Part shown: one piece after another, positions 14,797 through 29,463 of the stretch | Position numbering within the stretch: the stretch's first letter is position 1 | How the letters are laid out: each line of letters starts with the position of its first letter | Source of the DNA: an uncultured Eubacteriales bacterium | Lineage (GTDB): Bacteria > Bacillota > Clostridia > Christensenellales > Aristaeellaceae | Direction of reading: 5' to 3' | Assembly (NCBI GenBank): GCA_902798105.1 | Contig: CADBVG010000004.1 | Span: 1-34,449 of the forward strand | DNA length: 34,449 bases | Notes under the pieces: generated by a model | Told to the model about the DNA's origin: nothing | What the model saw: only the letters and a program-made list of their open reading frames with translations | Database searches by the model: none | Position numbers and translations under genes: made by a program

Positions 14797-16449
14797 TTAG
14801 GCCTTCTTCGCCTTGTTGGCGTTCAGCTTCTTATCCCACATGGCCCAGACCTGACCGCTGAGCAGCACGGAGGAATAAGTACCGGCCAGCATACCGACCA
14901 GCAGCGGGAACGCGAACTCCTTGATGGAGGACACGCCGAAGATGTACAGGCACACCAGCGTGAACAGCGTGGTCAGCGTGGTGTTGATCGTACGGGACAG
15001 CGTGCTGCTGACGGAGACCTCGACGACATCCATCATGTCCACCTGAGTGTAGCCCGGCTTCGCGCGGGTCTCGCGAATGCGGTCGAAGATGATGATGGTG
15101 TTGTTGATGGAATAACCGACGATGGTCAGTATGGCCGCGATGAACGGGCTGTTCACCTGGAACAGCTTGCGGAAGAACACCATGAACGCGCACATGATCA
15201 GGATGTCATGCACCAGCGCGAACAGCGCCGCCGCGCCGGAGAGCGGGCTGAACCGGATCGCGATGTAGATCAGCATGCATACGAAGGCGATCAGCAGCGC
15301 CTTGATGGCGTTGGACAGCAGGTCGTGGCCGGCGATGGCGCTGACATGGTCGATGGAGACGAAGCGGAAATTCGGATACTTCGCAGTCATCTCGCGCTCC
15401 AGCTGGGCGCGAACCTGGCTGGTTACGTCGTCCATGTCGATCAGGATGCGCAATTGGAAGCCGGTCTCCTCCGCAGGTTCGGCAACCGCTTCGGTCGTCT
15501 CGGCGTTCTCAGCGGGCGCTTCGGTAGCTTCAGCCTCGGTGCTCTCCTCAGCGGGCGCTTCAGTGGCCTCGGCTTCAGCGTTCTCCTCGGCGGGCGCTTC
15601 AGTGGCCTCGGCTTCAGCGTTCTCCTCGGCAGCCTCGGCATCGGCCTGGGCCTGCTCGGCAGCGGCCTGCTCCTCGGCGATGCGCGCGGCCTCAGCCTCG
15701 GCGTCGTACTGTATGAACTCGATGTCGTTCACGCTGTAGCCGCCCTCCTCGAGGGCCTTTTTCACAGCTTCCTCCACGGCGGCCTTGTCATAGGCGCCGA
15801 CCATGTCGAACTCGATGATGTTGCCGCCGGCATAGCTCAGCGCGTAGCCCAGGGTGCTGATCTCCTGGTTGGTGGCGGTGCGGTAGCCGATCTCGTTCGC
15901 GTTGGAGACGATGCCGACGACAGCGCCCTTGATCGTATCCTCCATGCCCTCGGTGGCGTCGGCCAGCTTCAGGCGGATCTGGAGGTCGGTCAGGCCGTCA
16001 TGGGCGATGCCCGACTTGTCGGGGTTCAGCAGGCCCAGGGTGGGTGTGACAGCCTCCTCGACTGCAGCCTCGACCGCAGCCTCCTCTACGGCTTCTTCAA
16101 CGGCCTCATCGACCGCCGCGGCAGCCTCGGGGTCCTCGGCGGCAGCCTCGGCGACCTCGTCGGCGGCCTTCTCAAGCTCTGCGGCAAGCTCCGCCTGCAG
16201 GGCGACAGACGCCGCGGAAGGCGCAGCCTTGGTGATCTGGCTGTCGTTATAGCCAGAGGCCTTCAGCAGAGTCTCTACATCGTTGACATCGTAATCCTCG
16301 CCGACGGAGTAGTTCAGAATAGAACCGCCGGTGAAGTCAATGCCCAGGTTCAGGCCCGCGCCGGCAATCTGCATGACCAGCGCGATGACGATGATTGCGC
16401 CAGAGATGCAAAGGAACAGGCGCGTATTCCCGGTAAACGTCTTTTTCAT
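14797..16449 (-). CDS. secF: Protein-export membrane protein SecF with duplicated, acidic P1 region
   Basis: This RND-type subunit works with SecD and SecYEG to complete protein export using the proton or sodium gradient. The SecF core is clear: TM1 (about 10-32) followed by LGIDFTGGS, then after the extracytoplasmic region the IAGHDLLSNAI segment, five membrane helices and the signature GYSINNTIIIFDRIRE. At 550 residues it is nearly twice the usual length (about 300). The extra length lies between TM1 and TM2: the segment starting GGSILNYSVGEDYD (41) recurs as GGNIIEFDMVGAYD (208), each followed by an acidic Ala/Glu-rich insert (about 86-134 and 250-330) and a similar LQIRLKLAD / FQLRILIDM segment (156 and about 329). 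The second insert has four 13-residue repeats. AGAGGAGG precedes the ATG; secD ends 15 bases upstream. Confidence 0.93.
   Translation of the reverse strand: MKKTFTGNTRLFLCISGAIIVIALVMQIAGAGLNLGIDFTGGSILNYSVGEDYDVNDVETLLKASGYNDSQITKAAPSAASVALQAELAAELEKAADEVAEAAAEDPEAAAAVDEAVEEAVEEAAVEAAVEEAVTPTLGLLNPDKSGIAHDGLTDLQIRLKLADATEGMEDTIKGAVVGIVSNANEIGYRTATNQEISTLGYALSYAGGNIIEFDMVGAYDKAAVEEAVKKALEEGGYSVNDIEFIQYDAEAEAARIAEEQAAAEQAQADAEAAEENAEAEATEAPAEENAEAEATEAPAEESTEAEATEAPAENAETTEAVAEPAEETGFQLRILIDMDDVTSQVRAQLEREMTAKYPNFRFVSIDHVSAIAGHDLLSNAIKALLIAFVCMLIYIAIRFSPLSGAAALFALVHDILIMCAFMVFFRKLFQVNSPFIAAILTIVGYSINNTIIIFDRIRETRAKPGYTQVDMMDVVEVSVSSTLSRTINTTLTTLFTLVCLYIFGVSSIKEFAFPLLVGMLAGTYSSVLLSGQVWAMWDKKLNANKAKKA
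15475..15630 (-). repeat. Four in-frame 39-base repeats within secF
   Basis: Four consecutive 39-base units encode AEENAEAEATEAP twice, then AEESTEAEATEAP and the diverged AENAETTEAVAEP (SecF residues 274-325). The two nearest the 5' end of the gene (15553-15630) are identical in DNA, suggesting recent expansion by slippage or unequal exchange. Confidence 0.95.
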
Positions 16450-16464
16450 GCTCGTTCCCTCCTC

Positions 16465-17721
16465 TTAGCGCGTGTAGGCGCTGCGGTTATTGATGCCCAG
16501 CTTGCAGATCAGGATCAGCAGGCCACGGGTAACCACCACCGCGGTAAAGTAGGAAGCGATGATGCTGATCATCAGCGTGGTGGCGAAGCCCTTGATGGTG
16601 CCGGTGCCGAAGATCATCAGCACGACGGCAGCGATCAGCGTGGTCACGTTGGAATCCAGCACGGCGCGGCCGGCGTTGCGGAAGCCGAACTTCACCGCGT
16701 TCAGCGGCGTGCGGCCTTCCTTCAACTCCTCGCGGAAGCGCTCGAATATGACCACGTTGGCGTCGACGGCCATGCCGATGCCCAGCAGGATACCGGCGAT
16801 GCCCTGCAGCGTCAGCTGCGCGCCCGTGATGGCCAGTGCATAGAACACGATCAGCACGTAAATCAGCAGGGCCATGTCCGCCGCTACGCCGGGCAGGCGG
16901 TACATCACCAGCATGAACACCAGCACCAGGATCAGGCCCACGATGCCGGCGATGACGGCGCCGTCGATAGCCTCGATGCCCAGGGTGGCGGAAATGGCGC
17001 GGGTTTCGACCTCAGCGATATCCATCGGCAGCGCGCCGGACTGAATCAGCATCGCCAGGTTGCGGGCCCAGTTGTAGGAATCCTCGGAAGAGGAACTGCT
17101 GGAGCTGGTGATGATGCCGTTGCCGCCAGCAATCACGGCCTGCACCGTGGGCGCGGAAATCAGCTCATCGTCCAGGTAGATTGATATCGCCTGGCCCATA
17201 AACTCGCGGGTGGCATTCTCAAAGGCCTTTGCGCCGGCAGCGTCCAGCTCAAAGCCCACGCCGTACAGCGTCTTTTCATCGTTGGCGTACTGCACGCCGG
17301 CCTGTTTGATGTCCTTGCCCTCGACCACCACGTTGCCGTTGGGATCGCGGAACTCCAGGTGCGCCGGGGTGCCGATGATGCGCGCGACCTCCTCGGGGTC
17401 GTCCACGTCGGGGATCTCAACCAGTATGCGGTCGGTACCCTGCACGGCCACGTTGGCCTCGGTAAAGCCGGCGTTGGTCAGGCGCGTGCGCAGCGCGGAA
17501 ACCGTGCCCTCCAGCAGGCTTTCGTAGTTATCCATGCTGGTATCCGTGGCGATGTACTCGGTGGATACGCCGCCGCGCAAATCCAGGCCCAGGCTGATGG
17601 CTTCACCAACGGGCTTGAGGTAACTCGATTTGCCCGGAATGTGCAATCCGTTCAGCGCCAGGAACGCCGCAACGACGATCAGCACCGCGACGATCACCAG
17701 TTTGATCAAACTCTTCTTCAT
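16465..17721 (-). CDS. secD: Protein-export membrane protein SecD
   Basis: This 418-residue RND-family partner of SecF has TM1 (about 5-25), the conserved LGLDLRGGVSTEY motif (45-56), the extracytoplasmic P1 region, and a C-terminal six-helix block with the GIAGILLGIGMAVDANVVIFERFREEL signature region (about 305-330). A seven-serine run occurs in P1 near residue 205. The start at 17721 has GGGAGG 10 bases upstream; an ATG 16 codons earlier is unsupported. It heads the eleven-gene minus-strand run, with a near-consensus promoter at 17787-17815. Separate secD and secF genes of this order are typical of Clostridia, whereas Bacillus has a fused gene. Confidence 0.95.
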   Translation of the reverse strand: MKKSLIKLVIVAVLIVVAAFLALNGLHIPGKSSYLKPVGEAISLGLDLRGGVSTEYIATDTSMDNYESLLEGTVSALRTRLTNAGFTEANVAVQGTDRILVEIPDVDDPEEVARIIGTPAHLEFRDPNGNVVVEGKDIKQAGVQYANDEKTLYGVGFELDAAGAKAFENATREFMGQAISIYLDDELISAPTVQAVIAGGNGIITSSSSSSSEDSYNWARNLAMLIQSGALPMDIAEVETRAISATLGIEAIDGAVIAGIVGLILVLVFMLVMYRLPGVAADMALLIYVLIVFYALAITGAQLTLQGIAGILLGIGMAVDANVVIFERFREELKEGRTPLNAVKFGFRNAGRAVLDSNVTTLIAAVVLMIFGTGTIKGFATTLMISIIASYFTAVVVTRGLLILICKLGINNRSAYTR

Positions 17722-17786
17722 TCGGTCCGTCCTCCCTGCTCTTGACTGTAGACACAGCCATTTCAGCATATATCATACAACAGGTT

Positions 17787-17998: not shown

Positions 17999-19684
17999 TC
18001 AGCGGCCGAACTGGCAATCGTTGTTGCCGGAATCGGTGGTCCACATCTCCAGCATGTTGATGGGATCGTTGAAGTCAGCCAGCCAGCCTTCGCGGGCGAA
18101 GTCGAAGTTGCCGTTCTTGCGGTCCTCGAGGAACACGTTCCAGTCCATGCTGCGGATGGTCATGTTGATGCCCACAGCCGCGAAGTCCTGCTGCATGCAC
18201 TCGGCGGCGGCAATGTGGCCGGAGTTCTCGTTGGTCAGGTACTCGATGCTGATGGGGGTGTTGGCGGACAGCATGTTGTTGTCGTCAAACTCAAAGCCGG
18301 CCTGCTTCAGCAGTTCGATGGCGCCGTCCACGTCGGGCTCCAGCTCGTAATAGCCCACCAGTTCCTCGCCATCAGAGGTGGTAGCGGTCACGGGATAGGT
18401 GTAGGCGTCGTCGTTCTGCTTGAACACGCCGCCGTTGCCATCTGCCATGCCTTCGGGGATGTAGGCGGTGGCGACCTTCTGTCCATTCTGGGCCACGGTC
18501 TCGATGATGTACTCGCGGTCGATCAGCTTGGAGAAGGCTTCGCGCATCGCGGCGGCCTGCTCCACGGTCTTGCCGTCGAACAGGTGGGACTTCACGTTGA
18601 AGGCGGCATAGTAGGTGCCCAGGTTATCGATGACCTTGTACTCGGGGTTGCCCTGCAGGTTGGCCTTCTCGTCGGTGGGCACGGAGTCGATGAAGTCCAC
18701 GTCGCCGGCCTGGTAGGCCGCATAGATGGCGGTGTCGTCAGCGGACAGCATGAACTGCAGTTTCTCCAGCTTCACGTTCTCGGCATCCCAGTAGTTGGGG
18801 TTCTTGGTGTAGGTCATGGAGGTATTGTGGGTCCACTCGGTCAGCGTGTAGGGACCAGAGGTCACAAAGCCAGCTTCCAGGGCCCACGCGCCGGGATTCT
18901 CCTGCCAGCCCTCGGCGGCCTCGACGGCGTGCTGGGGAACGGCGTAGAAGGCGGGGAAGGCCATCAGGTCGAGCATATAGGCGCAGGGCGCGTCCAGCTC
19001 GACGGTCAGGGTCTTGCCATCCTCAGAGGCGGTCACGGCCAGGTTGTCCGGATAGCCCTTGATGCCGTTGAACATATAGCTGTAGTCCGCGGCGGTCTGG
19101 GGATTGGCGGCGCGCTTCCAGCTGTACTCGAAGTCCTTGGCTGTCAGGTCGGTGCCATCGGACCACTTCAGGCCATCGCGCATGGTGAAGGTGTAGGTCA
19201 GGCCGTCCTCGCTCATCTCGTAGCCGGTGGCGAAGTCAGGCACAAGCTCCTCGTTGGCGTTGTAGGTGTACAGGCCGCCGAAGGAGGCGATGGCCAGGCA
19301 GGCGCCGTCCACGGAGCTGTTCAGGGCGGGATCCAGGTAATCCGGCTCGGAGGCCAGGTTCAGCTTCAGGGTGTCAGAGCCCTCGACAGTGGCGTACTGG
19401 AAGTACTTGAAGCCGAACAGGTTGGCATAGACGCCGTCCACGGTGGAACGCTGCATGAAATCGTCGTTGTAGTAGTAGATCGGGATGACGGCATAGGTGG
19501 ACATCAGGATGTCCTCGGCCTGGTGCATCTTGGCTTCGCGGGCAACGAAGTCGGTCTCGGCCTTGATGTCCGCGATCAGCGCGTCATACTCGGTCCAATC
19601 GGGCTCAGAGCCTTCGTCTGCCATGGCGGCGATGCAGGAGAGGAGCATCATCATGGCCAGCAGTGCTGCGAGCAGCTTCTTCAT
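17999..19684 (-). CDS. Oligopeptide ABC transporter substrate-binding protein, circularly permuted (copy 1)
   Basis: This 561-residue protein belongs to the OppA/DppA family (SBP_bac_5). It opens with a signal peptide; MMLLSC (C17) could be a lipobox, giving a lipoprotein on the outer face of the membrane. The order of parts is unusual. Residues about 28-100 (DWTEYDALIADIKAETD ... AVIPIYYYNDDFMQ ... FKYFQYA) match the segment that normally ends OppA proteins. The normal start (LKLNLASEPDYLDPA, 107-120) follows, then the usual core (EDGLTYTFTMRDGLKWSDG, 159-177). The protein stops at MWTTDSGNNDCQFGR, exactly where the relocated segment should follow. AGGAGG is 9 bases before the chosen ATG. 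Last gene of the opp operon; it should deliver peptides to OppBCDF. Confidence 0.93.
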   Translation of the reverse strand: MKKLLAALLAMMMLLSCIAAMADEGSEPDWTEYDALIADIKAETDFVAREAKMHQAEDILMSTYAVIPIYYYNDDFMQRSTVDGVYANLFGFKYFQYATVEGSDTLKLNLASEPDYLDPALNSSVDGACLAIASFGGLYTYNANEELVPDFATGYEMSEDGLTYTFTMRDGLKWSDGTDLTAKDFEYSWKRAANPQTAADYSYMFNGIKGYPDNLAVTASEDGKTLTVELDAPCAYMLDLMAFPAFYAVPQHAVEAAEGWQENPGAWALEAGFVTSGPYTLTEWTHNTSMTYTKNPNYWDAENVKLEKLQFMLSADDTAIYAAYQAGDVDFIDSVPTDEKANLQGNPEYKVIDNLGTYYAAFNVKSHLFDGKTVEQAAAMREAFSKLIDREYIIETVAQNGQKVATAYIPEGMADGNGGVFKQNDDAYTYPVTATTSDGEELVGYYELEPDVDGAIELLKQAGFEFDDNNMLSANTPISIEYLTNENSGHIAAAECMQQDFAAVGINMTIRSMDWNVFLEDRKNGNFDFAREGWLADFNDPINMLEMWTTDSGNNDCQFGR

Positions 19685-19714
19685 AGGTTGGTTCCTCCTA
19701 AAGTGTATTATCTG

Positions 19715-19733
19715 AAACGGCATATCGCCGTTT
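19715..19733. repeat. Small hairpin in the leader of binding-protein copy 1
   Basis: AAACGGC (19715-19721) and GCCGTTT (19727-19733) form a 7-bp stem with a 5-base loop, about 30 bases upstream of the start codon at 19684. It may shield or stabilise the message for this copy; it has no T-tract. Confidence 0.5.
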
Positions 19734-19761
19734 GAGACCAAGGTCGTGTTGGAAGTTAAAT

Positions 19762-19796
19762 ATCCTTCGACTCCGTTCCGCTTCGCTCAGGGTGAC
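19762..19796 (+). repeat. Dispersed ATCCTTCGAC...CTCAGGGTGAC repeat
   Basis: This stretch, in the gap between the two binding-protein genes, shares ATCCTTCGAC and GCTCAGG(A/G)TGAC with both arms of the element at 29287-29463. From memory, similar sequences are scattered in intergenic regions of many bacterial genomes. Confidence 0.7.
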
Positions 19797-19842
19797 GGCG
19801 TCGTTCCGAACGGCGTGAAGGGGGTCTGTCCGTCGAATTGTT

Positions 19843-21528
19843 TCAGCGTCCCAGGAAGCAGAAATTGTTGCCGGAGTTGGAGGTCCACATCTCAAGCATG
19901 CCGAGGGGGTCGTTGAAATCGGAAGACCAAGCGCAGGCGGCCACGTCATAGTGGCCGGAAATCAACTCGCTGATGTTCTCCTTGAAATCGACGGCGCGAA
20001 TGGTCATTTCAATGCCCACGGCGGCCAGGTCCTGCTGGATACACTCGGCGACGTTGGTCGCGCCGATGGCATTCATCGTCAGGAATTCAAAGGCGATGGG
20101 CGTCTCGTCGGAGAGCTTGTCTCCGTTGAACTTGAAGCCCGCCTGCTTCAGCAGCTCGATGGCACCCTTCACATCCACATCCAGGTCGAAATAGCCCTCC
20201 GCCTTCTCGCCGTCATCCAGGGTGGCGACCACCGGATAGGCATAATCCGGGTCGCTGGTCTTGAAGAATCCGCCCCGGCCATCGGCCATGGTGTAGGGAA
20301 CGAAGCAGTTTGCGGGCTTCTGGCCATACTGGGCCACGGTCTCGACGATGAAATCCCGGTCGATCAGCAGGGCGAAGGCCTTGCGCATGGCGGCGGCCTG
20401 CTCCACGGTCATGCCGTCGAACAGGTAGGATTTCACATTAAAGCAGAGGAACTGGGTGCCCAGCCGGTCGAATATGTGGAACTCTGGGGTCTGCTTCAGC
20501 GGGACGACCTCGTCCCTGGGAATGTTGCTGATGAGATCCAGGTTGCCCGCCAGGTAGGCCATGTAAGCGGCGGAGGAGTCGCCGCTGAGCATGAACAATA
20601 CCTTTTCAACCTTCACGTTCTCCGCGTTCCAGTAATTGGGATTCTTGATGAGAACCAGGTACTCGTCGTTCTTCCACTCGGACACCATAAAGGGACCGCT
20701 GCACACAAAGCCGGCCTGATGGGTCCAGGAGCCGGGGCTGAGCTTCGCGTTCGGCGCGGATTCCACGGCGGCGCGGGGCACGGCGAAGGTGGTGACAAAG
20801 CCCATCAGGTCCAGGAAGTAGGCGCAGGGCGCCTTCAGCTCCACGGTCAGGGTGGCGCCGTCCGCCGAGGCCGTCACGGCCAGGTCGTTCGGGTAGCCCT
20901 TGATGCCGTTGAGCATATAGCTGTAGGCCGCGCCGGTCAGGGGATCGGCGGCCCGCTTCCAGCTGTACTCAAAGTCACGGGCGTCCAGCGGCGTGCCATC
21001 GGACCACTTCAGGCCCTTGCGCATGGTGAAGGTATAGGTCAGGCCGTCCTCGCTCACTTCGCAGCCGGTGGCGTAGTTCGGCTGCGGCCTGCCCTGGGCG
21101 TCCCTGGCGTAGAGACCGCCGAAGCAGGCGTCGGCCAAAATCGCCGCGTCCATGGCCACGCAAATCGCCGGGTCTATGGTATCCGGCTCGCTGAACAGGT
21201 TGACGCGCAGCGTATCAGAGCCCTCCACGGCGGCATCCTGGAAGTAGGTGATGCCAAACGGGTCGTTGTACACGCCCGACACGGTGCCGCGCTGCAAAAA
21301 CGCCGAGTTGTCATAGTAGAGCGGCAGCACCGCGCCGGTGTCCATCAGCAACTCCTCGGCGTGATGCAGCATGTCCTCGCGCAGCGCAAGATCGGTCTCG
21401 AGCTTGGCGTCCGCAATCAGCTTATCGTATTCCGACCAGTCCGGCTCGGAGCCAGCGTCCGCCAGGGCGACGGAAAGGCAGGACAGTATCATCATCGCGG
21501 CCAGCAATACCGCAAGCAGCTTTTTCAT
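19843..21528 (-). CDS. Oligopeptide ABC transporter substrate-binding protein, circularly permuted (copy 2)
   Basis: This 561-residue paralogue of the downstream protein has the same length and the same unusual order of parts. Signal peptide with possible lipobox ILSC (C17); then DWSEYDKLIADAKLETD ... AVLPLYYDNSAFLQ ... YFQDA (about 30-100), the segment that normally closes OppA. Next comes LRVNLFSEPDTIDPA, the normal N-terminus (about 107-121), then the SBP_bac_5 core. It ends MWTSNSGNNFCFLGR. The two copies are clearly diverged, so the permutation predates their duplication. A GAGGAG site lies 10 bases before the ATG, and oppF ends 19 bases upstream. The pair may bind different peptides for one OppBCDF permease (inference). 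Confidence 0.93.
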   Translation of the reverse strand: MKKLLAVLLAAMMILSCLSVALADAGSEPDWSEYDKLIADAKLETDLALREDMLHHAEELLMDTGAVLPLYYDNSAFLQRGTVSGVYNDPFGITYFQDAAVEGSDTLRVNLFSEPDTIDPAICVAMDAAILADACFGGLYARDAQGRPQPNYATGCEVSEDGLTYTFTMRKGLKWSDGTPLDARDFEYSWKRAADPLTGAAYSYMLNGIKGYPNDLAVTASADGATLTVELKAPCAYFLDLMGFVTTFAVPRAAVESAPNAKLSPGSWTHQAGFVCSGPFMVSEWKNDEYLVLIKNPNYWNAENVKVEKVLFMLSGDSSAAYMAYLAGNLDLISNIPRDEVVPLKQTPEFHIFDRLGTQFLCFNVKSYLFDGMTVEQAAAMRKAFALLIDRDFIVETVAQYGQKPANCFVPYTMADGRGGFFKTSDPDYAYPVVATLDDGEKAEGYFDLDVDVKGAIELLKQAGFKFNGDKLSDETPIAFEFLTMNAIGATNVAECIQQDLAAVGIEMTIRAVDFKENISELISGHYDVAACAWSSDFNDPLGMLEMWTSNSGNNFCFLGR

Positions 21529-21547: not shown

Positions 21548-22509
21548 CTATTCGTGGGGGTTCCAGCAGGCGATGCGATGGCCGGGGCCGATCTCCGCGA
21601 GCGTCGGGCACTCCTGGGCGCAGCGCTCGGTGGCGTAGCGGCAGCGGGTGCGGAACGCGCAGCCCGAGGGCATGTTCAGCGGGCTGGGCACGTCGCCCTC
21701 CAGCGGGATGCGCTTGCGGGCGCGGGCCGTGTTGGGGTCGGGAATCGGTATGGCCGAGATCAGCGACTGCGTGTAGGGGTGCACCGGGTGGGTAATGACC
21801 TCGTCGGCGTCGGCGATCTCCACGATGCGGCCCAAATACATCACCGCGATGCGCTGGCTGATGTGCTTCACCACCAGCAGGTCGTGGGCGATGAACAGAT
21901 AGGCGATGCCCAGCTTCTGTTGCAGGTCCTCGAAGGTGTTGATCACCTGGGCCTGTATGGACACGTCCAAGGCGGAAACCGGCTCGTCGCAGACGATGAA
22001 CTTCGGGTCCACGGCCAGAGCGCGGGCGATGCCGATGCGCTGGCGCTGGCCGCCGGAGAACTCATGGGCATAGCGGCGGGCGTGGTCGGAGTTCAGCCCA
22101 ACCAGTCTCAGCAGCTCCTTGATGCGCGCGTCCCGCTCGCCCTTGGTGCCGTACAGCTTGTGGATGTCCAGCGGCTCACCAACGATGTCGGAAACCGTCA
22201 TGCGGGGGTTCAGGCTGGAATACGGGTCCTGGAACACGATCTGCATTTCCTGGCGGAACTTGTGGATGTTCTGGGGCGTAATCTGCTGGCCGTTATAGAT
22301 GATCTCGCCCGAGGTGGGCTTGTACAGGTGTAGTATCGTACGGCCCACGGTGGTCTTGCCGCAGCCGCTCTCCCCCACCAGGCCCAGCGTCTCGCCGGGC
22401 TTGATTTCAAACGAAACGCCGTCCACGGCCTTCAGGGGCTTGCTGGAAAACCAGCCGGTGCGCACCAGAAAGTGCTGTTTCAGGTCCTTGACCTCAAGGA
22501 GGTATTCGC

Positions 22510-22513
<4 letters not shown>
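21548..22513 (-). CDS. oppF: Oligopeptide ABC transporter ATP-binding protein OppF
   Basis: This 321-residue cytosolic ATPase energises peptide import. Walker A is GESGCGKTT (47-55), the signature FSGGQ is at 152-156, and Walker B is FIVCDEP (172-178). The C-terminal oligopeptide-transporter extension contains a Cys cluster (CAFRTRCRYATERC ... ACW), as in homologues in which such Cys bind an iron-sulfur cluster; that role is not shown here. The start overlaps the oppD stop by four bases (ATGA, 22510-22513), implying coupled translation. It follows oppD and precedes the two binding-protein genes. OppF rather than DppF is chosen by position and the oligopeptide context; the families are hard to separate. 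Confidence 0.93.
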
Positions 22514-23523
<1,010 letters not shown>

Positions 23524-23528
23524 GCCCA

Positions 23529-24605
23529 TTACCTCCTCAGCTTCGGGTCGAAGGCGTCGCGCAGGCCGTCGCCCAGCAGGTTGAAGCTCAGCACGATCAG
23601 GCAGATGATCAGCGCGGGGAAGATCATCTTGTAGGGATAGCTCTGCATACCGCCGCGGGCCGCGTTGGCCAGCGAGCCCAGCGAGGGCATCGGCGCCTGC
23701 ACGCCCAGGCCGATGAACGACAGGAAACTCTCGGTGAATATGGCCGAGGGAATTTGAAGGGCCACCGAGATGATGATGACGGACATGCAGTTGGGCAGTA
23801 TGTGCTTGCGGATGATGCGGCCCGGCTTCGCGCCCATGGCCTGGGCGGCCAGCACATATTCATTGTTCTTGATGGACAGTATCTGGCCGCGCACCAGGCG
23901 GGCCATGCCCACCCAGTACAGCACGCCGAACACCACGAACAGCGAAATCATGTTCGGGCCGATCTTGCTGACGATGCTGCCCTTCATGGCGTTGCCCAGC
24001 ACCTGGTTCATCACCACGGACAGCAACACCACCATCAGCGTATCGGGCAGGGAGTAGATGATATCGACGATGCGCATCATCACCATGTCCACCTTGCCGC
24101 CGAAGTAGCCGGATATGGAGCCGTACAGCAATCCTATGACCAGCACGATCAGGCTGGCGAACAGACCCACCGCCAGGGAGACCCGCGCCCCGTAGAGCAC
24201 GCGGATGAAGTAGTCGCGGCACAGCTCGTCGGTGCCGAAGATGTGGGGGAAGATCTTCTGTCCCTCGTCGATGGCCTTTTGCTCGTTCTTGGAATAGGTG
24301 AACGGGGCCAGGTTCTTGGCCGTCTTGTCGCGCTTGCCGTTGACGGTAATCATCTGTTCGTAGCTATAGGGGTAGAACATGGGCACGACCACGATGATCA
24401 GCACCAGCGCGACCAGCACGAACAGGCTGATCATGGCCAGCGGGTTCTTGCGCAGCTTGCGCATGCCGTCGCGGAAGAAGGTGGTGGACTCCCGCATGGT
24501 CTCGTGCTGGGCCTTCTCAGCGTCGGAAGCTTTTTCAAACTTGCTCACGTCAATTTGCAGGCTGAGGAGGTTTTTCTTGGGCAGCTTGTCTGCGTTGTAT
24601 GTCAT
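23529..24605 (-). CDS. oppC: Oligopeptide ABC transporter permease OppC
   Basis: This 358-residue inner-membrane permease has a cytosolic N-terminal tail of about 55 residues, TM1 (about 56-78), a longer than usual extracytoplasmic loop (about 80-125, charged), and the BPD_transp_1 domain. The EAA-like coupling loop is AAQAMGAKPGRIIRKHILPN. It ends ALIICLIVLSFNLLGDGLRDAFDPKLR, the classic OppC/DppC C-terminus. AGGAGG lies 9 bases before the ATG and oppB ends 14 bases upstream. Confidence 0.95.
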   Translation of the reverse strand: MTYNADKLPKKNLLSLQIDVSKFEKASDAEKAQHETMRESTTFFRDGMRKLRKNPLAMISLFVLVALVLIIVVVPMFYPYSYEQMITVNGKRDKTAKNLAPFTYSKNEQKAIDEGQKIFPHIFGTDELCRDYFIRVLYGARVSLAVGLFASLIVLVIGLLYGSISGYFGGKVDMVMMRIVDIIYSLPDTLMVVLLSVVMNQVLGNAMKGSIVSKIGPNMISLFVVFGVLYWVGMARLVRGQILSIKNNEYVLAAQAMGAKPGRIIRKHILPNCMSVIIISVALQIPSAIFTESFLSFIGLGVQAPMPSLGSLANAARGGMQSYPYKMIFPALIICLIVLSFNLLGDGLRDAFDPKLRR

Positions 24606-24619
24606 GGCTTCATCCCTCC

Positions 24620-25531
24620 TCAGTCAAAGGTGATCCGCGGATCGACCAGCTTGTAAACCAGGTCGCTCAGCAGCGTGGCGATGACCATCAGCACCGCCAG
24701 GAAGATCGTGGTCGCCATGATCAGCGGGTAATCCTGGTTGTTGATGGAGCGCACGAACTCGGTGCCCAGTCCGCCGATGGTGAACACCGTCTCCACCACC
24801 ATGGAGCCGGTGAGGATGTAGGCCACCATCGGGCCGACGTAGGTGATGACCGGGATCAGCGCGTTGCGCAGCGCGTGCTTGAATATGACCAGCGAATCCC
24901 GCACGCCCTTGGCACGGGCGGTGCGGATGTAATCCTGGCCCAGCACGTCCAGCATCGACGACTTGGTCAGTCGGGTGATGTAGCTCATCGGGTACAGCAT
25001 CAGCGAAATCACCGGCAGCACGTAGTTGGGGTTGTTGGCGTCGAACACGCCCACCCACTTCAGCGTCAGCGCGAACACCAGCAGCAGTATCGTGGCCAGT
25101 ATGAAGCTGGGAACCGACACGAACAGCGTGGTCAGGAAGATGATCAGCCGATCCGGCCAGCGGTTGCGGCACAGCGCCGCGATGGAGCCCAGGATCAGCC
25201 CCAGCACCACCGCCCAGAGCGCGGCCATGCCGCCCAGCTTCGCCGAGACCGAGAACTTCTCAGCAATGATCTGGGAGATGTCGCGCCCCGTCTTCAGCGA
25301 AACGCCGAAGTCGCCGTGCAGCAGGTTTTTCAGGTAGATGACAAACTGCTGGGGCACCGGCTTGTCCAGGTTGAAGCGGGCCTCCAGCGCGGCCTGCACC
25401 GCAGGGTCGGGGGCCTTTTCCTTGGCGAAGGGGCCGCCGGGGATGGCGTTCATCGCAAAGAACGTGATCGCCGAGATGATGAACACGGTGATCACGGCCA
25501 GCAACACGCGCTTGATTGTGTACTTGAGCAT
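24620..25531 (-). CDS. oppB: Oligopeptide ABC transporter permease OppB
   Basis: This 303-residue permease is the first gene of the opp operon. It has the family N-terminus (MLKYTIKRVLLAVITVF), a periplasm-side loop with FNLDKPVPQQF and HGDFGVSL, six predicted membrane segments, and the coupling loop YIRTARAKGVRDSLVIFKHALRNALIP. It ends LLSDLVYKLVDPRI, as in OppB/DppB. The Shine-Dalgarno (AAAGG) is weaker than elsewhere in the operon. The promoter lies at 25630-25658. Confidence 0.95.
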   Translation of the reverse strand: MLKYTIKRVLLAVITVFIISAITFFAMNAIPGGPFAKEKAPDPAVQAALEARFNLDKPVPQQFVIYLKNLLHGDFGVSLKTGRDISQIIAEKFSVSAKLGGMAALWAVVLGLILGSIAALCRNRWPDRLIIFLTTLFVSVPSFILATILLLVFALTLKWVGVFDANNPNYVLPVISLMLYPMSYITRLTKSSMLDVLGQDYIRTARAKGVRDSLVIFKHALRNALIPVITYVGPMVAYILTGSMVVETVFTIGGLGTEFVRSINNQDYPLIMATTIFLAVLMVIATLLSDLVYKLVDPRITFD

Positions 25532-25819: not shown

Positions 25820-26031
25820 ATCCGATCAGACGACGGGGAGCATGTCCCGGGGAAACGCACGGCAAGAGAATGCGCGTCACAGGCTGGAAGCGCGCAGCGC
25901 GGCGACCACGGGGTACCGGCCCTTGATGAACGGCGTCTCGCGCGCGTTACTGCGCGGATGAGTGGTTTTACAAGCAGGGTGGAACCGCGGATGCATGGCA
26001 TTCGTCCCGGCGCAGGGGCGGGTGTTTTTTT
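25820..26031 (+). promoter_or_regulatory. T-box riboswitch (threonine) in the thrS leader
   Basis: This leader shows the conserved T-box AAGCAGGGTGGAACCGCGG (25972-25990), whose TGGA bulge pairs with the NCCA end of uncharged tRNA. It is followed by a terminator (25999-26031). Upstream, AGAGAA (25865-25870) resembles the AG-bulge of stem I. CCGATCA near the 5' end can pair with TGAT...CGG at 25924-25933, closing stem I and placing ACC (25915-25917), a Thr codon, in the expected specifier region. Uncharged tRNA-Thr should favour the antiterminator and turn on thrS. The fine fold of stem I was judged by eye. Confidence 0.9.
25999..26031 (+). terminator. T-box terminator hairpin
   Basis: CATTCGTCCC (25999-26008) pairs with GGGGCGGGTG (26015-26024, including G-T pairs) around loop GGCGCA and is followed by seven T. 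It competes with the antiterminator that contains the T-box sequence. Confidence 0.88.
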
Positions 26032-26062
26032 ATTTGCTATTATAATGAAGGGGTGTATCAAT

Positions 26063-27952
26063 ATGGATCGCGAACAGTTTCTTGAAGTCTACCGCCATTC
26101 CCTGGCCCACATACTGGCCAAGGCCGTGATGGAAATTTTCGGTCGGGAGAACGTGCAGATCGCCATCGGCCCGCAGATTGCCGACGGCATGTACTACGAC
26201 TTCCTGCTGCCCCGGGGCATCAGCACCGAGGACTTCCCCGCTATCGAGCAGAAGATGAAGGAGATCATGAAGCGCAAGGAGGCCTGGACCCGCAAGGTGG
26301 TGGGCAAGGAAGAGGCGCTTCAAATCTTCAAGGGCCAGAAGTACAAGGAAGAACTGATTAATGACCTGCCCGAGGGCGAGACCATCACCGTGTACTACAC
26401 CGGCGACGACTTCGTGGACCTGTGCCGCGGCCCCCACGTGGAAAACTCCGCCGAGCTGCTGAGCGTGGCCTACAAGATCCGCGCCGTGTCCAGCGCCTAC
26501 TGGCGCGGCGACGAAAAGCGGGATTCCCTGCAGCGCGTGTACGTGTACGCCTTCCCGGACCAGCAGCAGCTGAAGGCCCACCTCGCCATGATCAAGGAGG
26601 CCCAGGAGCGCGACCACAAGAAGATCGGCAAGGAACTGGACCTGTTCATGTTCGACGAGACCGCCCCCGGCATGCCCTACTGGCTGCCCCGGGGCTGGAA
26701 GCTGTACCAGACGCTGCTGGCCTATTCCCGCAAGCTCCAGGCCAGGCACGGCTACACCGAGATCTCCGCGCCGCTGATCAACAAGAAGAAGCTGTGGGTC
26801 ATCTCCGGCCACTGGGCCCACTACCAGAACAACATGTTCATGGTGCCGGGGCTGGAGGGCTTCGTTTCCGCCGACGCCGAAATCCCCGGCGTGCTGGACA
26901 ATCCCATGGACGGCCTGGACGAGACGGCGACCGTCAAACTGGAAAAGGGCGCGCCGTTGTTCAACCGCGACCTGGACGACACCATGGGCGCCAAGCCCAT
27001 GAACTGCCCCAACGCCATGATGACCTACAAGCGCACGCTGCACAGCTACAAGGAGCTGCCCATCCGCTACAGCGAATATGACGTGCTGCACCGCAAGGAG
27101 AAGTCCGGCCAGATGAACGGCCTGTTCCGGGTGCAGGAGTTCCGCCAGGACGACGACCACACCTTCGTCACCGAGAGCCAGATCGAGAGCGAGATCGCCG
27201 ACATCATCTCCATCGCCGACGAAATCTACTCCACCTTCGGCGTCACCTACCGCGCCGAGCTGTCCACCCGACCCGAGGACTTCATGGGCGACATCGAGGT
27301 CTGGAACCGGGCCGAGGCCGCGCTGAAGAAGATACTGGACGACAAGTACGGCGAGGGCGGCTATGAGATCAACGAGGGCGACGGCGCGTTCTACGGCCCG
27401 AAGATCGACCTGCAGATCAAGGACGCGCTGGGCCGCGAGTGGCAGTGCGGCACCATCCAGCTGGACTTCCAGCTGCCTCACAACTTCGGCCTGACCTACG
27501 TCAACGCCGAGGGCAACCAGGAGATGCCCGTGGTCATCCACCGCGCCATCTATGGCTCGCTGGAGCGCTTCATCGGCATCATCATCGAAAACTTCAAGGG
27601 CGCCTTCCCCTTCTGGCTGAACCCCTATCAGGTGGCCGTGGTGCCCATCCGCCCCGAACACAACGAATACGCCCGCAAGGTGGCCGAGCGGCTGGAGGAC
27701 GAGGGCATCCGCGTGGAGGTGGACTACGCCGACATCAACATGAACACCAAGATCAAGAACTTCAAAACCATGAAGGATCCCTACATCGTGGTGGTTGGCG
27801 ATAAGGAAGCCGCCGAGAACACCGTCGCCATCACCGTGCGCGGCCAGAAGCAGCAGCTGCACAACGTGCCGCTGGAGACCCTGGTGAAGATGTGCAACAA
27901 GATGAACGACGAGCACAGCCTCGAGCTGATCGGGGAGATTCCGCAGGAATAA
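26063..27952 (+). CDS. thrS: Threonyl-tRNA synthetase lacking the N-terminal TGS domain
   Basis: This 629-residue class II synthetase charges tRNA-Thr. It begins directly with the editing domain (HSLAH: H12, H16; DLCRGPHV: C121, H125), so the usual N-terminal TGS domain of about 60 residues is missing. The catalytic core keeps zinc ligands C315 (MNCP), H366 (DDDH) and the His of VVIHRAIYGS, and motif 2 HRKE (R344, E346). Compared with E. coli ThrRS, the stretch before MNCP is about 30 residues longer (about 261-309), and the conserved His and Arg equivalents of H337, H371 and R377 are replaced by Ala318, Asn352 and Gln358. The anticodon-binding domain is at the C-terminus. AAGGGG precedes the ATG by 9 bases; expression is under the T-box. 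Confidence 0.94.
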   Translation: MDREQFLEVYRHSLAHILAKAVMEIFGRENVQIAIGPQIADGMYYDFLLPRGISTEDFPAIEQKMKEIMKRKEAWTRKVVGKEEALQIFKGQKYKEELINDLPEGETITVYYTGDDFVDLCRGPHVENSAELLSVAYKIRAVSSAYWRGDEKRDSLQRVYVYAFPDQQQLKAHLAMIKEAQERDHKKIGKELDLFMFDETAPGMPYWLPRGWKLYQTLLAYSRKLQARHGYTEISAPLINKKKLWVISGHWAHYQNNMFMVPGLEGFVSADAEIPGVLDNPMDGLDETATVKLEKGAPLFNRDLDDTMGAKPMNCPNAMMTYKRTLHSYKELPIRYSEYDVLHRKEKSGQMNGLFRVQEFRQDDDHTFVTESQIESEIADIISIADEIYSTFGVTYRAELSTRPEDFMGDIEVWNRAEAALKKILDDKYGEGGYEINEGDGAFYGPKIDLQIKDALGREWQCGTIQLDFQLPHNFGLTYVNAEGNQEMPVVIHRAIYGSLERFIGIIIENFKGAFPFWLNPYQVAVVPIRPEHNEYARKVAERLEDEGIRVEVDYADINMNTKIKNFKTMKDPYIVVVGDKEAAENTVAITVRGQKQQLHNVPLETLVKMCNKMNDEHSLELIGEIPQE

Positions 27953-27955
27953 ACG

Positions 27956-28001
27956 ATTTATCAGGGGCAACAGACATGCATGTCTGCTGCCCCTGTCATA
28001 A
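27956..28001. repeat. Long hairpin between thrS and the GH27 gene
   Basis: TTTATCAGGGGCAACAGACAT pairs with ATGTCTGCTGCCCCTGTCATAAA with one mismatch and one bulge; the core is 27962-27995. There is no T-tract in the plus direction, so read-through into the glycosidase gene is possible, and the stem may protect or separate the two messages. Confidence 0.75.
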
Positions 28002-28016
28002 AAAGGAGTGTATGCA

Positions 28017-29273
28017 ATGCTTGCCCAAACCCCTCCCATGGGCTGGAACAGCTGGGACTGCTACGGCGGGGCGGTCAACGAGGCCCAGGTGCGTCAAAAC
28101 GCCGAATACATGGCCCGTTATATGAAGCCCCTTGGCTGGGAGTACGTGGTCATCGACATCCAGTGGTACAACCCCACCGCCAGTACCCATGAATACGAGC
28201 CCTTCTCCGAGGAATGCATGGACGGCTTCGGCCGCTTCATTCCCGCCGAAAACCGCTTTCCCAGCGCGGCGGGCGGCGTGGGCTTCAAGCCCCTGGCGGA
28301 CTACATCCACAGCCTGGGGCTGAAATTTGGCATCCACATCATGCGGGGCATGCCCCGCGTCGCCGCCCACCGCCACCTGCCCATCGAAGGCAGCGCATAC
28401 AGCTGCGCCCAGGTGGCCGACCCCAATTCCATCTGCGCCTGGAACCCGGACATGTACGGCGTGCGGCAGGATCACCCCGGCGCAAGGGACTGGTACGACA
28501 GCATCTTCCGGCTCTATGCCCAGTGGGGCGTGGACTACGTCAAGTGCGACGACATCGCCCGGGAGTACCCCCACTGCAAGCGGGAGATCGAGCTGATCGG
28601 CGAAGCCTGCCGCGATTGCGGGCGGGACATCGTACTGAGCCTCTCCCCCGGCCCCGCGCCGCTGGAGCAGGCGGAGCACCTGAAAGCATACGCCAACCTG
28701 TGGCGCATTACCGACGACTTCTGGGACGAGTGGCCGCTGTTGAAGGCCATGTTTGAGCGGGCGGAAAAGTGGTGCGTCCACGCGGGCCCGGGCCACTGGC
28801 CCGACGCGGACATGCTGCCCGTGGGCGCCCTGCGCCAGTGCTACGCCGACCATCCCCGGGGCAAGTGGACGAACTTCACCGAGGCCGAGCAGCGCACGAT
28901 GATGACCCTGTGGTGCATGATGCGCGCGCCGCTGATGGTTGGGGCGGAGCTGACGAAGAACGACGACTTCACGCTGGCCCTGCTGACCAACCGGGAGGTG
29001 CTGGCCATCGAAAGGGAGAGCTGGTGCGGCCATCCGCTGTACACCACCGCGGAGGAATGCGCCTGGATCGCCCCGCGAAAGGACGGCGCGGGCTGTTATG
29101 TGGCGGCCTTCAACCTGTCCGACAAGGCCCGCCGGGTACAGGTGGACGAGGACTGCCTCGAAGGGACGCCCTGCCGCGCCACCGAACTGTGGACCAGCCG
29201 CGCCGCCCGCAGGGGCCTGATCGCAAGGCTCGCGCCTCACGACGCCGCGGTCTGGCGGGTAGCGTTCAGATAA
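28017..29273 (+). CDS. Glycoside hydrolase family 27 protein, alpha-galactosidase-like
   Basis: This 418-residue protein has no signal peptide, so it should act on oligosaccharides already imported. The opening TPPMGWNSWDCYGG is the GH27/GH36-clan signature. The nucleophile should be D178 in DYVKCDD and the acid/base D234 in LWRITDDF; GHWPDADML is also family-typical. GH27 contains alpha-galactosidases, alpha-N-acetylgalactosaminidases and beta-L-arabinopyranosidases; the motifs cannot separate these. A C-terminal beta-sandwich domain is indicated by VAAFNLSDKARRV. The ATG at 28017 is 8 bases after AGGAG; a GTG at 28008 overlaps that site. It lies 64 bases after thrS with no evident promoter and may be expressed by read-through. 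Confidence 0.92.
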   Translation: MLAQTPPMGWNSWDCYGGAVNEAQVRQNAEYMARYMKPLGWEYVVIDIQWYNPTASTHEYEPFSEECMDGFGRFIPAENRFPSAAGGVGFKPLADYIHSLGLKFGIHIMRGMPRVAAHRHLPIEGSAYSCAQVADPNSICAWNPDMYGVRQDHPGARDWYDSIFRLYAQWGVDYVKCDDIAREYPHCKREIELIGEACRDCGRDIVLSLSPGPAPLEQAEHLKAYANLWRITDDFWDEWPLLKAMFERAEKWCVHAGPGHWPDADMLPVGALRQCYADHPRGKWTNFTEAEQRTMMTLWCMMRAPLMVGAELTKNDDFTLALLTNREVLAIERESWCGHPLYTTAEECAWIAPRKDGAGCYVAAFNLSDKARRVQVDEDCLEGTPCRATELWTSRAARRGLIARLAPHDAAVWRVAFR

Positions 29274-29286
29274 AACGTGAAATAAC

Positions 29287-29463
29287 AAAAGATCCTTCGA
29301 CCCCGCTCAGGATGACATAGGTTTGGCGGTAAATCGAAAAATCTGCAAGAGATGACTGGCGGAAAAGGCACCGCCAGATGTGCCGCCGTATTGTGCGGTA
29401 GTTCCTTAATTAGTTGTCATCCTGAGCGGAGACGCGAATGCGTCGCAGTCGAAGGATCTTTTG
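29287..29463. repeat. MITE-like element with inverted ends between convergent genes
   Basis: Outer arms AAAAGATCCTTCGAC (29287-29301) and its complement (29448-29462), and inner arms CGCTCAGGATGACA (29304-29317) and its complement (29415-29428), are exact. The 97-base centre holds a further 7-bp hairpin (CTGGCGG ... CCGCCAG). No coding capacity. The T-run after each outer arm could make it a bidirectional terminator for the GH27 gene and msrC. Confidence 0.8.

Follow-up and report, generated by a model that had tools for sequence, protein, structure and literature searches.

The window analyzed here, a stretch of 34,449 nucleotides from an uncultured Eubacteriales bacterium (assembly GCA_902798105.1, contig CADBVG010000004.1, positions 1 to 34,449 of the forward strand), encodes two binding proteins of the SBP_bac_5 family whose chains are circularly permuted relative to OppA and DppE. 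We consider it very probable that these OppA/DppE-type permutants are working receptors of an Opp importer and that the gene has been permuted repeatedly, probably by way of tandem duplication. A first-pass annotation had described the permutation in the two window proteins; beyond that, we found that such events are numerous, the window case being one of them, and that they involve four cut points or more. The parts of the two proteins are as follows.

17999..19684, minus strand: permuted SBP_bac_5 copy 1, 561 amino acids from the ATG of MKKLLAALL at 19684
19619..19684, minus strand: copy 1 signal peptide MKKLLAALLAMMMLLSCIAAMA (direct reading)
19382..19594, minus strand: copy 1 moved segment, the C-terminal ~70 residues of the family (profile 481-551), now the mature N-terminus
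18002..19369, minus strand: copy 1 remainder (profile 27-479), last residues SGNNDCQFGR
19843..21528, minus strand: permuted SBP_bac_5 copy 2, 561 amino acids
21226..21435, minus strand: copy 2 counterpart of the moved C-terminal segment (profile 481-550; profile mapping)
19846..21228, minus strand: copy 2 remainder (profile 24-477), last residues SGNNFCFLGR (Pfam and profile mapping)

The open reading frame of copy 1 had been listed to 19741 with a TTG start; we infer instead the ATG at 19684. A gap of 158 bp separates copy 1 from copy 2, which lies upstream of it and starts 19 bp past oppF.

The order of the parts was mapped on a 551-position profile built from eight normal-order relatives. 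Copy 1 matched positions 481-551 and then 27-479, and copy 2 matched 481-550 and then 24-477; the start positions left unmatched in both copies correspond to the signal peptide in the profile. The window proteins thus lack the normal N-to-C order of the fold: the two segments are exchanged, each is present once, and none is lost. These results bear out the proposal of the first-pass annotation that both copies carry the C-terminal segment directly after the signal peptide and stop at SGNN..GR, with nothing duplicated or missing. Two outcomes that it had named as telling against a permutation, a moved block that fails to align with OppA C-termini and a segment present at both ends, were looked for and not found. 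An extra domain or repeat was ruled out as well, since each block occurs once in the profile mapping. The native C-terminus runs into the native N-terminus through a short linker (..FQYA-TVEGSD-TLKLNL..), and the new ends lie in the loop after SGNNDxQFG(R/K), with the signal peptide ahead of the new start.

Moreover, separate alignment of the blocks gave the same result. The first block of copy 1 alone (84 amino acids) matched residues 451-515 of DppE (8ay0, E 1.1e-8), 436-488 of OppA 3zs6 (E 3.4e-4) and 455-522 of Bacillus subtilis OppA (8are, E 4.8e-4), with a weak match to 445-495 of the Salmonella-type OppA 1b05 (E 0.52), while the remainder of the protein aligned with DppE 16-444. When the copy 1 blocks were restored to normal order, DppE aligned as a single stretch (query 4-530 on 26-515). 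The window proteins are homologous over the whole chain to DppE and OppA of B. subtilis (8ay0, 8are) and to enterobacterial MppA/OppA, with which they also share an OppBCDF-type operon and the predicted fold; however, the known OppA, DppE and MppA proteins have the normal order. Consistent with this, in none of the best 60 of 77 matches in the PDB did the best stretch begin before position 42 of a junction profile whose junction lies at ~48-54.

Pfam SBP_bac_5 (PF00496) scored 281 bits for copy 1 and 262 bits for copy 2, against a cut-off of 32.4, and no other Pfam family matched the two proteins. In both copies this is one ordinary uninterrupted match, which is why the window cut point passes unnoticed. 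The expectation that family searches would miss the permutation therefore holds for the window cut point but not throughout: L096 and L101, two loci of our collection with other cut points, were matched in two pieces.

The fold was predicted with AlphaFold2 from an alignment of 40 class A proteins (the class with the window cut point), as the first-pass annotation had suggested. The model of the window protein had an OppA-type fold and was confident, with a mean predicted local distance difference test score (pLDDT) of 92.1 and a predicted template modelling score of 0.90. The moved segment was modelled as two helices and a long strand (H9-20, H24-40, E44-56), with a pLDDT of 93-96 in ten-residue blocks over residues 11-80 and of 80 in the first block. 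The top ten Foldseek matches were OppA, DppE and MppA chains over 469-486 columns, with template modelling scores of 0.50-0.70 by query length, about what a displacement of ~80 residues along the chain should give. By prediction, then, the permuted protein would have the same three-dimensional fold as its normal-order relatives.

Related genomes carry the same order, a search that the first-pass annotation had called for. Within the genus, 18 of 28 genomes (counting the window's own) had a junction-spanning match, three of these matches being cut at an end and some of the other genomes being incomplete. Permutants were present in at least 16 of 396 genomes of the order (from 30 loci read, two on weak scores) and, again from loci read, in at least 10 of 391 genomes of the class and at least 2 of 398 of the phylum. 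Three of 247 Spirochaetota genomes had a full junction match, and all three map as class A. From 569 candidates we kept 80 named loci, ranked by junction likeness so that their counts do not give prevalence: in 61 the chain starts with the C-terminal block (several of these are partial, L092 is unclear and L045 is a fusion), in 18 the order is normal, and one is a fragment. In L092 a signal peptide was not seen, and the frame begins inside the moved part. The genomes represented among the named loci include Treponema bryantii strain XBD1002, with the permuted order, and metagenome-derived genomes assigned to Lachnospiraceae, Oscillospiraceae, Erysipelotrichaceae and Sphaerochaetaceae. Some Spirochaetota genomes (~3.4 Mb), such as G1203, G1239 and G1313, gave more than 50 first-look junction-profile candidates; in each, 17 of these were scored and all 17 matched.

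The window contig comes from a draft assembly of 146 contigs, which is a point for an artefact (misassembly, a pseudogene or a wrong frame). We regard such an artefact as next to inconceivable. The order is shared by the 18 congeneric genomes, by T. bryantii strain XBD1002 and by single-contig genomes (G461 with class B and G747 with class C, 3.1 Mb each), and this recurrence in many genomes means that the arrangement is neither chance nor an assembly fault. The frames are also open, have signal peptides and show ratios of nonsynonymous to synonymous substitution (dN/dS) below 1.

The permuted chains were cut at four points of the profile: ~480 as in the window (class A), ~386 (class B), ~296 (class C) and ~513 (class D). 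After filtering, 188 rows, near copies included, comprised 95 of normal order, 78 of class A, eight of class B, four of class C, one of class D and two unclear; L139 and L140 were placed in class A on weak moved-segment scores (26 and 21 bits). Among class A proteins with a stop codon, 65 of 75 fit a pattern with the chain end a few residues or less from SGNN..G(R/K), and 10 did not. In the class B rows L209, L210 and L212 the second block mapped only to profile 342-344, and the last residues were unplaced. Class C chains open ahead of an (I/V)RxAxxLxxDR helix, at what we take, from the domain limits of OppA, to be the boundary between domains I and III. The remaining cuts presumably fall inside domain III or ahead of the final strand; by these limits the new ends of all four cut loops would lie in or bordering domain III.

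We built trees after rotating all sequences to normal order. Rows with profile coverage below 380 positions, exact duplicates and the fused L045 were excluded, as were near copies (class A from 74, normal order from 60 and others from 95 percent identity). L023, L092 and L124, and then L140, L006 and L007, were removed because they were partial, ambiguous or on long branches, whereas window copy 1 and at most five named rows were restored. The resulting 85-row tree implied 15 changes of order, and its well-supported branches forced at least 11 between normal and permuted. A 42-row subset, which we picked ourselves and used for one-clade tests, implied 15 changes, at least eight of them forced. 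With groups defined by cut point and not from the tree, a single clade was rejected for class A (p 1.5e-49), class B (2.2e-73), class C (5.9e-72) and all permutants together (2.8e-59). Classes B and C each occupied three tree positions. The normal/permuted split was clustered beyond chance in the 85-row tree (15 changes; 0 of 500 shuffles as low) but not in the 42-row subset (13 changes; 192 of 500 shuffles as low).

These results bear on whether a single ancient permutation, with later shifts of the cut point and reversions, could replace repeated independent permutation. Several classes have similar joining linkers (TVEGSDTL for window copy 1, TVDGKTDKL for L029 of class B), normal-order rows nest inside the large class A clade, and counts of changes are blind to gain versus loss, all of which a single origin would accommodate. 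Such an origin would still need many changes of order, however, and the rejection of every one-clade grouping, together with the scattered positions of classes B and C, makes it unlikely. Reversion itself has some support: nine class A rows as a clade without the nested normal-order rows were rejected, more weakly (p 0.0074). Because this group was picked after tree inspection and its p value is weaker, reversals from permuted to normal order appear likely but are not proven. Overall, repeated permutation is better favored, and we think it rather probable that the order flips repeatedly in the same Opp-operon slot of Clostridia, from normal to one of four or more permuted orders and, by reversal, back again, which would make this receptor gene a permutation hot spot.

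The most likely route to these permutations would be tandem duplication, in-frame fusion and trimming of both ends, and the same route may run backwards, restoring normal order. The window holds a tandem pair of permuted genes, and locus L045 (1532-5518) encodes one frame of 1329 amino acids with the order C-N-C-N and A/E/V-rich linkers, which could be a leftover of the duplication route on its way. PMC3320104 gives fission and fusion as one of two standard permutation models; here the moved segment would have its source in a different gene or in a small protein of its own. We compared the moved segment with the rest of the chain by identity to the same normal-order relative in 14 pairs of our choosing. 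In 10 pairs the two values lay within 8 points of each other (e.g., 74/70, 58/59 and 62/60), and over 630 pairs of 36 class A rows they were correlated (r 0.81). The other four pairs departed by 10 to 23 points, as a foreign segment might: L111/L144 (moved 52 and rest 75 percent), L081/L102 (46/60), L093/L154 (76/63) and L211/L191 (26/36); as a relative of L081, L102 ranked 32 of 95 by moved segment and 6 of 95 by the rest. The 10 close pairs indicate that the moved segment most likely, though not beyond doubt, derived from the gene itself, and we find a fission and fusion origin quite improbable.

A permutation could also be retained if it moved a membrane anchor. A loose, lipoprotein-like Cys pattern was present in 53 of 77 class A rows, including the two window copies (LLSC/ILSC), in 8 of 8 of class B, 4 of 4 of class C and the single class D row; the median distance from the Cys to the first conserved residue was 33 in class A versus 12 in normal order, and three class A domains sit on proteins with a kinase domain. 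However, 61 of 95 normal-order rows have the same pattern, so the anchor is not special to permutants, and several class A relatives, among them L026, L042, L066 and L076, lack it and were read as secreted; the pattern itself is loose and missed some plain lipoboxes. Anchor moving is thus weakened, and doubtful, as a general reason for permutation. For copy 1, the signal peptide has two possible fates, signal peptidase I cleavage at AMA/DEG or Cys lipidation. The A-x-A/D retained in relatives and the lack of Cys in L026 favor signal peptidase I.

Transporter genes lie directly upstream of both binding-protein genes (21548-25531):

21548..22513, minus strand: OppF-type ATPase (ABC_tran and oligo_HPY; Pfam)
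22510..23529, minus strand: OppD-type ATPase (ABC_tran and oligo_HPY; Pfam)
23529..24605, minus strand: OppC-type permease (BPD_transp_1 and OppC_N; Pfam)
24620..25531, minus strand: OppB-type permease (BPD_transp_1 and BPD_transp_1_N; Pfam)

The next upstream transporter gene was oppF at 50 of the 61 named permuted loci; the remaining 11 involve a contig start, a long overlapping frame (L049), kinase fusions or another order (L105). Within the stored flanks (at most 4 kb), all 61 loci had a single strong SBP_bac_5 frame; L048 additionally has a permuted copy cut by the contig, and two copies are present in the window. The normal-order genes L097, L098, L102, L107 and L115 stand behind oppF too, in the slot that their permuted sisters occupy. 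Across 12 orthologues (66 pairs), the median dN/dS was 0.34 for the moved segment and 0.33 for the core. Together, these results suggest that the window proteins most likely serve the OppBCDF importer, whose genes immediately precede theirs, as extracytoplasmic receptors. Family and context point to peptide uptake as their likely function, with ligand binding in a two-lobed clamp and delivery to OppBC presumably as in ordinary OppA.

Several points weigh against this account. A core dN/dS of 0.33 is below 1 yet not very low. The place of the moved segment in the fold is a predicted one; a class B model reached a pLDDT of 40.2 from a three-row alignment and was set aside, and we infer the OppA fold of classes B, C and D from their sequences. 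Order-change counts cannot separate gain from loss, and the duplication route is represented by one fused C-N-C-N frame and by tandem copies.

Circular permutation is usually treated as a rare event linking two proteins. In this one receptor family we found dozens of permutants with four cut points and close normal-order sisters in the same operon slot, such as L111 and L144 (75 percent identity over 429 positions outside the moved segment). Permuted binding proteins as such are already known. In Treponema pallidum, the sugar-binding protein TpMglB-2 (Tp0684) is circularly permuted, and 'Type Ic' has been proposed for it (PMC4990184); it is likewise a natural permutant among the binding proteins of ABC importers, has kept its ligand binding and has relatives in Gram-positive gut bacteria. 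It differs from the window proteins as a Type I / cluster B sugar binder, whereas they match SBP_bac_5 alone in Pfam; according to the same paper, its N-terminal strands have moved to the C-terminus, and sequence conservation in the permuted portion is poor. Among the matches listed from open-licence literature, judged by titles and abstract starts, there was no report of circular permutation in SBP_bac_5, OppA or DppA. What is striking here is thus the unusual recurrence in the OppA/DppE family.

DNA methyltransferases, unrelated to SBP_bac_5 in fold and function, comprise several permutation classes within one fold. Permutations with duplicated intermediates are documented for these enzymes in excerpts of PMC3320104, which also give saposin/swaposin, a small helical domain unrelated to SBP_bac_5, as the classic permutation by duplication.

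Sister pairs in one slot allow direct tests of the origin of permutation, of reversion and of the effect of chain order on transport, and the cut points suggest tolerated sites for sensor design. If our reading is true, the family offers a natural experiment on the positions at which a two-lobed receptor can start and stop.

Three loci, L086 (1078 amino acids), L090 (951) and L091 (1064), have a class A domain at the C-terminus and a Pkinase domain at the N-terminus (97-130 bits), with a hydrophobic stretch between the two, as judged by eye. They are apparent receptor kinases with a permuted substrate-binding protein as outer domain; a literature search prompted by them listed only PMC6069109. 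L021 (genome G007) and L069 have long A/E-rich stretches (EEAVEEAADEAEE) before the permuted domain, which begins at frame residue 259 in L021 and 293 in L069, the latter frame being open at the contig end. The class A proteins of L064 and L089 have an A/E- or T/E-rich tail past the SGNN..G end as well, as if a linker had been divided over the two termini. Elsewhere in the window, the opp operon is followed by SecD/SecF-type genes of the same orientation (14797-17769), and two minus-strand open reading frames of 669 and 430 amino acids (26030-28039 and 27996-29288) had no Pfam match at E 0.001.

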